Below are positions 46,156-51,519 of a stretch of DNA of 64,000 bases, piece by piece. Source of the stretch: Elusimicrobia bacterium RIFOXYA12_FULL_51_18 (GTDB taxonomy: Bacteria; Elusimicrobiota; Elusimicrobia; Elusimicrobiales; UBA9959). Each line of letters starts with the position of its first letter. Within the stretch, counting starts at the first letter, position 1. The stretch covers positions 1 to 64,000 of the forward strand of contig MGVA01000033.1 in assembly GCA_001800245.1 (NCBI GenBank), in the 5' to 3' direction. The notes beneath the pieces were generated by a model. It searched no databases, was not told where the DNA came from, and saw only the letters and a list, made by a program, of their open reading frames with translations. The position numbers and the translations under genes are program-made.

Positions 46156-46469
46156 GTCATAACCTTCTTCGCGCAACATCCTGCGGAAACTTTATAGAGA
46201 CCTTTTAACGTCGTTTTCCCTGGCATCCCCAGGGCTAGGGACCGCGAGAAGCCGTCGCGGGCGTAGCCACGATGCGCGGCCCCGCACCGTTCCTTGCCGC
46301 AGGAAGGTCGCAGGCGAGCCCACACGCCGGCCCATTGGTGGGCCGGCTCCGGGCTCGCTCTGCTCCAGCAGAAACGGCGTTGTTTATCATGGCCTCACCC
46401 CCTTCCCGTCCGCCATAGGCGGCCGGGTTTCGGCTTCGCCGTACAACCCGGAAAATTATTGCCCGCGCC
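46156..46469. repeat. Island-flanking structured repeat, left copy (family D)
   Basis: This copy is homologous over its whole length to the reverse complement of 50600-50959. Best blocks are CCTTCTTCGCGCAA, CCCACACGCCGGCC, GGCCGGCTCCGGGCTCGCTC followed by TGCTCCAGCAGAAA, TTTATCAT and AAAATTATT.CCCGCGC. The hairpin GCCGGCCCA-TTGG-TGGGCCGGC at 46326-46347 is kept in the other copy by paired changes. Confidence 0.8.
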
Positions 46470-46982: not shown

Positions 46983-47156
46983 ATGGAAGATATAGCTAAA
47001 TATCTAACTGTCCGTCAGGTTGCAAAGAAACTCGGGATTAGCGAGGAATGGGTCAGAGATTTAATTGCTAGAAAAGAAATCAAAGCTGTGAAAATTGGGC
47101 AATGGAAAATTAGCCAAGAGGCTTTAGACCAATTTATCAAATCTCGAAGCAATTAA
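46983..47156 (+). CDS. Small helix-turn-helix (excisionase/MerR-like) DNA-binding protein
   Basis: A 57-residue protein from the ATG at 46983, chosen over the track start at 46950 because AGGAG lies 7 nt ahead. The sequence YLTVRQVAKKLGISEEWVRDLIARKEIKAVKIGQWKIS is a typical winged HTH_17/excisionase-type domain. It lies 5 nt before the interrupted HEPN-like gene, so it could be a regulator or antitoxin for the island, or an excisionase relic. No integrase is present. Confidence 0.82.
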   Translation: MEDIAKYLTVRQVAKKLGISEEWVRDLIARKEIKAVKIGQWKISQEALDQFIKSRSN

Positions 47157-47161
47157 AAAAT

Positions 47162-47768
47162 ATGAACAGCAGCCCCAAAACCTTAGAAGAAGCCTTAATG
47201 TGGAGTGCAGGGCCGACTGACAAGGAAAAAGCTATTTTTTCCGCGATGCTTAAAATAGAAGCAACGCTTCTGAGTGCCACCACAAAAGATGTCTATGTTA
47301 AAATGCGGACTTTTGTTATAGCGCTACACGCGATAATAGAAAGATTGCTAAATCATTTATTGAAGGAATTAAGCCTGTCTTGTGGGGAAGAAGCAAACTT
47401 CAGTTGCAAAATATGTAAACTTGAAAATTACTTTAAGCCCAGCACGCTAAAACACTTGAGGAAGATTAATCAGTTTAGAAACGGATTTGCACATTTATAT
47501 CCTCAGCGCCATAAAAAGTTTAACAATCTGCCAGAAATCCCCGGGCTTTCAAGCCCGGGGATGAATGGCAGCCCGGAGCGACGCGGAGGCCATTTTCGCA
47601 TAGCGGCTATGCGAGAGGTCTGAAACCCTGGCCTTTAGGCCGGGGAGTGGGTTCATTTTTAATGGCGGGACAGTGTTTGATAGTGGCTCCATAACTCAAC
47701 TGTTTAATCAATTTATGGAAATATCTGATGACCACACAAACATTCTGCGTTTGAAGACACAGAAATAA
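47162..47768 (+). pseudogene. HEPN-like (MltR/DUF4145-type) gene interrupted by a hairpin element
   Basis: The track ORF (47162-47623) reads real protein to LPEI and then runs into inserted sequence. Joining 47162-47538 to 47657-47768 gives one open frame of 162 codons ending QLFNQFMEISDDHTNILRL KTQK. The all-helical protein carries INQFRNGFAHLYP, an R-x4-H motif of the HEPN RNase type, and two Cys (SCKICK). It follows the HTH gene with almost no gap, as in toxin-antitoxin-like pairs. As it stands the product is truncated after the motif, with a foreign tail. Confidence 0.7.
47539..47656 (+). mobile_element. 118-bp IS200/IS605-like non-autonomous element (end hairpins only)
   Basis: It begins with CCCCGGGCTTTCAAGCCCGGGG and ends with AGGTCTGAAACCCTGGCCTT-TAGGCCGGGG-AGTGGGTTCAT, the layout of left and right hairpin ends of IS200/IS605 elements; the right part resembles the guide-RNA scaffold at the 3' side of tnpB. 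No tnpA or tnpB is present and no target duplication is seen, as is usual for this family. Excision in silico restores the host reading frame. Exact edges are uncertain by a base or two. Confidence 0.65.
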
Positions 47769-47790: not shown

Positions 47791-48522
47791 ATGATAAACG
47801 AAAAACCCCGAGAACCTTTGCCGAAAGATTTTGGACTTACTGATGCGGGAATAAAAAAGCTCGAAAAGACTTCGGGATGGATACGCGGGTTTGTCGCAAT
47901 GCTCCCCGGCGTGTTGCTGTTATTCAAGTTCGGGGCTCCTTCCGACCCTTCCGATTTAACATTAGGCACCACGTTGATACTTGGTTTTATCATTGTGTTT
48001 GTGCTGTCTCCTCTCGCTTATACGATAGTTGAGCAGATAATAGTTCGATGGTGGCCAATTGTTACGCCCTTTTGGTTGTTTTGGCACCCGGATTATTCAA
48101 AATATAAACAATACCAACTGGCCCAAAAGCGATATAAAAACGACTATGATGAATGGCTGAAAACCCAATTGTCTTGGTGGCAGAGATTAAGCGGTCAAAG
48201 ATTTGAGCAGGAAATCGGGGCGGTGTTTGAAAAACGCGGCTATCAAGTATATTTGCAGGGGAAATCCGGGGATGGCGGGGTTGACCTTATTATTTCAAAA
48301 GGCTCCCAAAGAATAATCGTTCAATGTAAAGCGCATAAAAATCCGATAGGCCCGCATGTCGTCAGAGATTTATATGGAGCCCTCACTCATAATAAAGCCC
48401 GGAAAGCCTGGATTGTCTCGGTTTCACGATTTACCAAAGGCTCATGGGAATTCGCCGTAAATAAGCCGATTCGTCTTATTACGATAGAAGATATCCTCAC
48501 AGAGAGATTTATTGTTTCATAG
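47791..48522 (+). CDS. Membrane-anchored Mrr-like restriction endonuclease
   Basis: A 243-residue protein with two N-terminal hydrophobic segments (about 32-50 and 58-80) and a C-terminal Mrr-type PD-(D/E)xK domain (about 130-243). The active-site pattern is FEQEIGAVFEKRGY, SGDGGVDLIIS, IIVQCKAHKNPIG and HVVRDLYGAL. Mrr-like nucleases cut foreign or modified DNA, and membrane-tethered versions occur in phage defence loci. It starts 22 nt after the broken HEPN-like gene, without a clear Shine-Dalgarno. The region is more AT-rich than its chromosomal surroundings. Confidence 0.88.
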   Translation: MINEKPREPLPKDFGLTDAGIKKLEKTSGWIRGFVAMLPGVLLLFKFGAPSDPSDLTLGTTLILGFIIVFVLSPLAYTIVEQIIVRWWPIVTPFWLFWHPDYSKYKQYQLAQKRYKNDYDEWLKTQLSWWQRLSGQRFEQEIGAVFEKRGYQVYLQGKSGDGGVDLIISKGSQRIIVQCKAHKNPIGPHVVRDLYGALTHNKARKAWIVSVSRFTKGSWEFAVNKPIRLITIEDILTERFIVS

Positions 48523-50599: not shown

Positions 50600-50959
50600 T
50601 GCGCGCGGGAAATAATTTTCTGCGTTGGCCGCTTGAGGCGCATAGCGCTTGTTGCGGCACGGGCACAGCCCAGTACGGACGCCGAAGGCGGACGGGAGCG
50701 GCCAGCAGGCCGCGCATAAGGAGGTGATGAGTATGATAAACACCTCTTTTCTGCTGGAGCAGAGCGAGCCCGGAGCCGGCCGCCAAAAGCGGCCGGCGTG
50801 TGGGCGAGCCTGCGAACTTCCTTGCGGCAAGCGTGGGAGGCCGCGCGGCGTGGCCGACCGCGCGACATCCCGCGGATAGGCTTCCCCGGACCGCAGATCC
50901 AGGGGGAAAGCGGAATCTATATAGTTTCCTCGGGATGTTTTGCGCGAAGAAGGTTCGAA
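50600..50959. repeat. Island-flanking structured repeat, right copy (family D, inverted)
   Basis: The inverse of the repeat at 46156-46469. It contains the hairpin GCCGGCCGC-CAAAA-GCGGCCGGC at 50775-50797, whose outer base pairs equal those of the left copy while two inner pairs differ in a compensated way. A good AAGGAGGTGA ahead of ATG at 50733 opens a 48-codon frame also preceded by a purine-rich site in the left copy. Confidence 0.8.
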
Positions 50960-51020: not shown

Positions 51021-51108
51021 CGGAGAGGGAGGGATTCGAACCCTCGAAGCACTTTTGGCGCTTACAGACTTTCCAGGTCTGCGCCTTCAACCACTCGGCC
51101 ACCTCTCC
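51021..51108 (-). tRNA. tRNA-Ser (anticodon GGA)
   Basis: An 88-nt class II tRNA: acceptor GGAGAGG/CCTCTCC with discriminator G, D arm GCCGAGTGG, anticodon stem-loop CAGAC-CTGGAAA-GTCTG giving GGA, long variable arm, and T loop TTCGAAT. No encoded CCA. Confidence 0.96.
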
Positions 51109-51110
51109 AC

Positions 51111-51204
51111 TTGTCGCACCCCGCGCTAAACACATGCGCGGGGCGGATTACGCCGGGCTTTATAAGGTGACGCCCGGTGCTCCACAAGGAGGGCTCTGCC
51201 CTCC
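51111..51204. repeat. Family C repeat between tRNA-Ser and tRNA-Tyr, copy 1
   Basis: A 94-nt unit matching 51303-51396 at 92 of 94 positions. It holds three hairpins: CCCCGCGC/GCGCGGGG, GCCGGGC/CGCCCGG and GGAGGGC/GCCCTCC. Confidence 0.85.
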
Positions 51205-51302
51205 GTTTCATCGTCGCTTACTCCCTGCGCTTCGCTTGGTCGTTACGCTGAACCTCCCGGAGTGGAAATCTCTTTAATAAAATTGTATCCATTTCTTCAT
51301 GC

Positions 51303-51396
51303 TTGTCGGACCCCGCGCTAAACACATGCGCGGGGCGGATTACGCCGGGCTTTATAAGGTGACGCCCGGTGCTTCACAAGGAGGGCTCTGCCCTCC
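51303..51396. repeat. Family C repeat between tRNA-Ser and tRNA-Tyr, copy 2
   Basis: A near-identical direct copy of 51111-51204. The two fill most of the 327-base gap between the tRNA genes. A shorter relative lies at 7932 and a fragment (TGTCGCACCCCGCGCT) at about 22110. Confidence 0.85.
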
Positions 51397-51435
51397 ATTC
51401 AACCGGCACTTGCTTCCCATCTTTGCAAAATCATA

Positions 51436-51519
51436 TGGTTGGGGAAGGATTCGAACCTTCGTAGGACGTAGTCCGCTGGTTTTACAGACCAGTGCATTTG
51501 ACCGCTCTGCCACCCAACC
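51436..51519 (-). tRNA. tRNA-Tyr (anticodon GTA)
   Basis: An 84-nt class II tRNA: acceptor GGTTGGG/CCCAACC with discriminator A, anticodon stem-loop CTGGT-CTGTAAA-ACCAG giving GTA, T loop TTCGAAT. No encoded CCA. Upstream extended -10 at 51576. Confidence 0.96.

Follow-up and report, generated by a model that had tools for sequence, protein, structure and literature searches.

A transposase-less IS200/IS605-type element inside a putative HEPN-like gene of an Elusimicrobia genome

The 64,000-nt stretch of the Elusimicrobia bacterium RIFOXYA12_FULL_51_18 genome analyzed here (contig MGVA01000033.1, positions 1 to 64,000; hereafter the window) contains a small ORF that appears to be broken by a hairpin-rich insertion, which raises the question of what has been inserted, where it begins and ends, and what became of the gene. 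From its ATG at 47162, the ORF runs for 120 codons before entering the inserted segment, where it meets a stop (47621-47623); the present-day chimeric ORF (47162-47623, + strand) thus encodes 153 amino acids, specified by about 120 native codons and further codons supplied by the element. Beyond the segment, the stranded last part of the gene (47657-47768, + strand) stays open for 36 codons up to a TAA and represents the sole stop-free forward frame. The initial annotation read the insertion as a hairpin-ended IS200/IS605-type element of 118 bp (47539-47656) within a pre-existing ORF. We consider it highly probable that 47524-47656 is a non-autonomous IS200/IS605-family element (PATE/MITE) which derives, by loss of the tnpA core, from an IS200-type element resembling that of another genome of the same family (G070, contig JAJYNO010000024.1), was mobilized in trans by TnpA, and has inserted into a HEPN-like gene.

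The genome harbors two copies of the element. The second (G000:C47:7363-7500) is 99% identical, with a single mismatch, and is located intergenically in a different context on contig C47. When both copies are aligned with their flanks, an unbroken common block extends from TTTAACAATCTGCC... to ...GGGTTCATT and starts to the left of 47539. Together with the guide code described below, this places the left edge at 47524 and the length at 133 nt; the right edge of the initial annotation stands, whereas its left edge was 15 nt too short. Both copies sit after TTTAA and their right flanks diverge past one T. Terminal inverted repeats and target duplications are lacking, and insertion took place 3' of a fixed tetranucleotide. 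The difference of only one base between the copies implies that the element moved recently, in agreement with the recent insertion suggested initially. Its exact boundaries are now available for annotating such insertions. No match to the element's DNA was obtained in plasmids and phages, nor to its left-end 20-mer in viral contigs.

The segment is GC-rich and strongly folding, with three hairpins corresponding to both ends and the middle of the element. Its folding exceeds that of shuffled sequences both as single-stranded DNA (z-score -3.8) and as RNA (z-score -4.8), and in neither case was any shuffle equally stable. All features lie on the + strand. The left cleavage/target site TTAA (47520-47523) stays in the flank, and the equivalent position is occupied by TTAT in G070 and by TTAT or TTAC in copies from Nitrospirota. 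The left guide AAAT (47535-47538) lies at the 5' base of the left hairpin, and the left-end palindrome (ATCCCCGGGCT...AGCCCGGGGAT, 47537-47562) is recovered in DNA and RNA folds and kept in G070, in the Nitrospirota copies and in a diverged copy (76%) from G013, a genome of a different genus in the same family. The middle hairpin (TCGCATAGC G GCTATGCGA, 47596-47614) is followed by the right guide GAAA (47622-47625), the right-end palindrome (CCCTGGCC ttta GGCCGGGG, 47626-47645), likewise folding and kept in relatives, and the right cleavage site TCAT (47653-47656), with a T immediately after it at 47657, as in the right ends of relatives that were read. Folds and comparison with relatives therefore agree on subterminal palindromes at both ends. 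Elsewhere in the genome (G000:C64:89372-89413; L008 about 868-920), a nearly perfect palindrome similar to the left hairpin (GCCACTCATCCCCGGG...CCCGGGGATGAGTGGC) stands alone, the rest of the element being absent.

A phylum-wide search identified a relative with the same ends. In G070, matches to the left end (91%) and the right end (88%) lie about 550 nt apart, and an intact 150-aa transposase is encoded between them on the same strand (G070:C20). This protein matches PF01797 (E 1.5e-40) and the NCBIfam IS200/IS605 transposase profile NF033573 (E 2.9e-42), and the PDB chains most similar to it come from IS200/IS605-type transposases, that of ISHp608 among them. By the guide-code rule the G070 element spans L044 2735-3287 (553 nt), with target TTAT and guide AAAA, and contains TnpA only, with no tnpB within. 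It shares with the window element not only the ends and palindromes but also inverted repeats just inside both ends: a 13-nt pair (TGGCATAATCTGG and CCAGATTATGCCA) brackets tnpA in G070, and a similar pair is fused as the middle hairpin of the window copy. It differs in its length, its intact tnpA, its target and its guide. The hairpin-ended IS200/IS605-type nature proposed by the initial annotation is thus borne out by the folds, the guide code and the TnpA between the same ends.

The same comparison bears on the earlier suggestion that the right part of the element resembles a TnpB guide-RNA scaffold, i.e. that it is the remnant of an omega RNA in a tnpB-derived element. The segment does form a stable RNA fold, and a hairpin-plus-terminal-tetranucleotide layout is common to IS200/IS605 right ends and omega RNA scaffolds. 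However, the same ends surround tnpA without tnpB in G070, which favors reading the window element as a tnpA-less IS200 derivative and not as a TnpB guide scaffold. Furthermore, the assembly of the host genome (90% complete) contains no recognizable match to TnpA or TnpB (PF07282 for TnpB), PF07282 has two matches only among 59 genomes of the family, neither of which was shown to have the element's ends, and no Rfam family reaches threshold, a permissive threshold yielding chance-level matches only. We therefore regard an omega RNA origin as very unlikely.

Each hairpin of IS608 has, at its 5' foot, a 4-nt guide that base-pairs with a 4-nt cleavage site; on the left, the guide (GL) 5' of the hairpin pairs with TTAC, including the contacts A+16:T-3 and A+17:T-4 (PMC5934647). 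The window element follows this scheme with AAAT/TTAA (guide/site) on the left and GAAA/TCAT on the right, and G070 with AAAA/TTAT and GAAA/TCAT, while Nitrospirota copies carry AAAA/TTAT or AAAG/TTAC on the left and GAAA/TCAT, GAAG/TCAC or AAAG/TTAC on the right. A table of guides and sites was entered by hand from printed ends (14 left, 12 right). The fourth guide/site pair holds at 12 of the 14 left and 11 of the 12 right ends, and all three pairs hold at 11 and 10 of them, respectively. In a permutation test on all three pairs, p was 0.00125 (left) and 0.00015 (right), values that are optimistic since the copies are related. The 20-base left-end pattern used to find the relatives contains neither guides nor cleavage sites, so the scan did not force this result. 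Three of the 26 guide/site pairs fail at the fourth base (L058 left, L088 left and L056 right), perhaps representing decayed copies. Target sites of the relatives conform to TTAN, with the exception of the diverged G013 copy, which has no recognizable site there. Judged from these ends, the 4-nt guides change in step with the cleavage sites, as in IS608, which provides natural support for the DNA-guide rule through the combinations TTAA/AAAT, TTAT/AAAA and TTAC/AAAG (site/guide) on the left and TCAT/GAAA, TCAC/GAAG and TTAC/AAAG on the right. The window element resembles IS608 in its subterminal hairpins, its 4-nt guides 5' of the hairpins, its TTAC-like target and the related Y1 TnpA of its tnpA-bearing relative, but has TTAA/TCAT in place of the TTAC/TCAA sites, with matching guide changes, and contains neither tnpA nor tnpB. 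IS608 and ISDra2 prefer a certain base after the right site (PMC5934647); this base is T in the window element, compared with the C preferred by IS608.

The reading frame is consistent with these boundaries. In-silico removal of 47524-47656 (133 nt, 1 mod 3) leaves 474 nt with the frame restored, and the initial observation that removal of 47539-47656 (118 nt, also 1 mod 3) leaves 489 nt in one frame to the natural stop (TAA, 47766-47768) was reproduced; insertion into a pre-existing ORF is supported. Counting the following T as part of the element (134 nt) would leave the frame broken. With the boundaries fixed by the element, however, a given frame stays open for 36 codons by chance with a probability of about 0.09, so the frame argument alone is modest, and the case is carried by the second copy, the tnpA-bearing relative and the guide code. 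Codon-usage scoring is uninformative for the downstream part, because the AT-rich island scores negative in every frame, although the expected downstream frame is the best of six. In G070, the 553 nt of the element (1 mod 3) equal the exact frame offset between the halves of an unrelated ORF, and the offsets in the two genomes support the boundaries independently of each other. The G070 element breaks this uncharacterized ORF (L044 2240-3959) in-frame as well. Neither a Pfam match nor, in the genomes searched, a homolog was obtained for the first half of the ORF, and a search for an empty site of the G070 insertion found none.

The first part of the interrupted gene (47162-47523, + strand) encodes an RNGFAH (R-x4-H) motif and has weak matches to HepT profiles (NF047751, E 3.2e-4, 20.6 bits against a cut-off of 60; PF01934, E 0.0075, 16.4 bits against 23.5). 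Based on this sub-threshold HepT match and the motif, the HEPN-like label is plausible. Like HepT toxins of the type VII HepT-MntA systems (HEPN family), the product has the R-x4-H motif and a weak profile match over residues 47-113 of 120, but it falls below curated cut-offs, lies next to an HTH gene instead of an MNT antitoxin and has its C-terminal part cut off. The match ends at profile position 98 of 120, with about 22 positions missing, so whatever follows the motif in the fold would lie on the far side of the insertion. A single-sequence structure model was all-helical, with low confidence (mean pLDDT 61.7), and searching with it produced no usable match, the best Foldseek probability being only 0.11, to 5yep (SO_3166-SO_3165). 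The two flanking parts of the gene were searched separately; no convincing homolog of the HEPN-like part, and hence no uninterrupted counterpart or empty site, was found in the order, the phylum, genome contigs, viral contigs, plasmids or phages. Three matches below 30 bits from the order and phylum searches, located inside frames of 349-1010 aa, were judged spurious.

The initial annotation considered a toxin-like RNase to be silenced. The product is probably a truncated or chimeric, damaged HepT-like RNase and loss of its activity appears likely, yet silencing is uncertain because the RNGFAH motif lies upstream of the insertion and is retained in the chimeric ORF. The open chimeric ORF with its motif might also suggest that the element has been domesticated and that the 153-aa protein ending inside it is a working product. 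Against this, the HepT-like match does not extend past residue 113 and lacks the remaining profile positions, a conserved chimeric homolog was not found, and the still open downstream frame suggests that too little time has passed; domestication is hence also very unlikely. We favor instead an insertion of the tnpA-less element that explains the broken appearance of one small gene in a defense island. Under this explanation, the tnpA core would have been lost from an IS200-type element like that of G070, and a Y1 (HUH) TnpA acting in trans is predicted to have mobilized the resulting gene-less derivative as single-stranded DNA. Its insertion, 3' of TTTAA and with no duplication of the target, would have hit a small HEPN-like gene that was still intact, and the last 37 or so codons of the gene would have been replaced by element-encoded residues. 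Precise excision would restore the frame and would require TnpA, which was not found in the genome's own assembly.

Excision is also central to the alternative raised initially, a switch; in the form considered here, TnpA-mediated precise excision in a fraction of the population reversibly turns the HEPN-like gene on. Established boundaries, restoration of the frame, the known ability of IS200/IS605 excision to reseal donor DNA precisely (PMC5934647) and the recent movement indicated by copies one base apart are all compatible with such a switch. Contrastingly, TnpA was not found in the genome at 90% completeness, no excised form was found in the assembly, and any member of the family would be expected to restore the frame on precise excision. 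As precise resealing is normal for IS200/IS605 elements, it does not point to selected switching and constitutes no evidence for regulation. The switch thus gained no support, and we give it even less weight than domestication or an omega RNA; its more elaborate form, in which a gene-less IS200-type element turns a toxin-like RNase of a defense island on and off at the population level, through precise single-strand excision by a TnpA from elsewhere, deserves less credence again. An assembly or binning artefact is the least probable explanation, since, although the draft genome is fragmented (69 contigs) and the element repeated, both copies are contig-internal with unrelated flanks and a one-base difference, and length and target obey the rules of the family.

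The element is thus an ordinary, exactly bounded member of the PATE/MITE kind within the IS200/IS605 family. A scan of 85,462 genomes with the 20-base left-end pattern identified 12 places, namely the G070 contig and eleven places in Nitrospirota or Nitrospira-named MAGs. The latter are mostly short tnpA-less elements too, with one to four matches per genome. These data document tnpA-less IS200 derivatives, a relative with tnpA from the same bacterial family, and further members in Nitrospirota. PATEs of Haloquadratum walsbyi are core-deleted IS605-type elements (PMC3119063) and share with the window element the lack of terminal inverted repeats and target duplications, near-terminal palindromes, a length too short for a transposase, the IS605-type core deletion and presence in multiple copies. 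They differ in being haloarchaeal, whereas the window element is bacterial, has a tnpA-only IS200-type relative, carries an extra middle hairpin equivalent to the tnpA-flanking inverted repeat and occurs at low copy number (two). New here are the element family itself, its distribution over two phyla and the natural guide/site covariation. In WY3.bin154 (L053 and L060), one copy retains a tnpA start (73% identical over 33 aa), which is cut off by a segment with a second transposase gene, apparently of the REP type from our reading of the sequence; the left flank of the other copy matches part of this segment.

The interrupted gene lies in a defense-like island. Upstream, separated by a 5-nt gap, a possible partner gene (46983-47156, + strand) encodes a 57-aa HTH_17/excisionase-type DNA-binding protein (PF12728, E 1.8e-15; TIGR01764, E 4.4e-12), and 22 nt past the stop of the interrupted gene follows a Mrr-like restriction endonuclease whose N-terminal part is hydrophobic (47791-48522, + strand; PF04471, E 2.4e-29; PADLOC PDC-S02 and type IV REase matches). 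No MNT nucleotidyltransferase antitoxin was found beside the HEPN-like gene, its neighbors being these two genes. Also downstream of the interrupted gene are a protein weakly similar to the PD-T7-1/PD-T7-5 defense proteins and a RhuM-type protein, which together with the Mrr-like enzyme indicate the defense-like setting. A dispersed repeat flanks the island (about 46.4-50.7 kb) on both sides in inverted orientation (window 46301-46374 and 50748-50822), with 34 nt of exact and 32 nt of 91% identity and an overall 74% over about 240 nt. Contigs C59 and C26 of this genome carry more partial copies, and the repeat may mark how the island was acquired. Further downstream, a 116-nt direct repeat (51110-51225 and 51302-51417, 91% identical) is located between the tRNA genes at 51021-51108 and 51436-51519.
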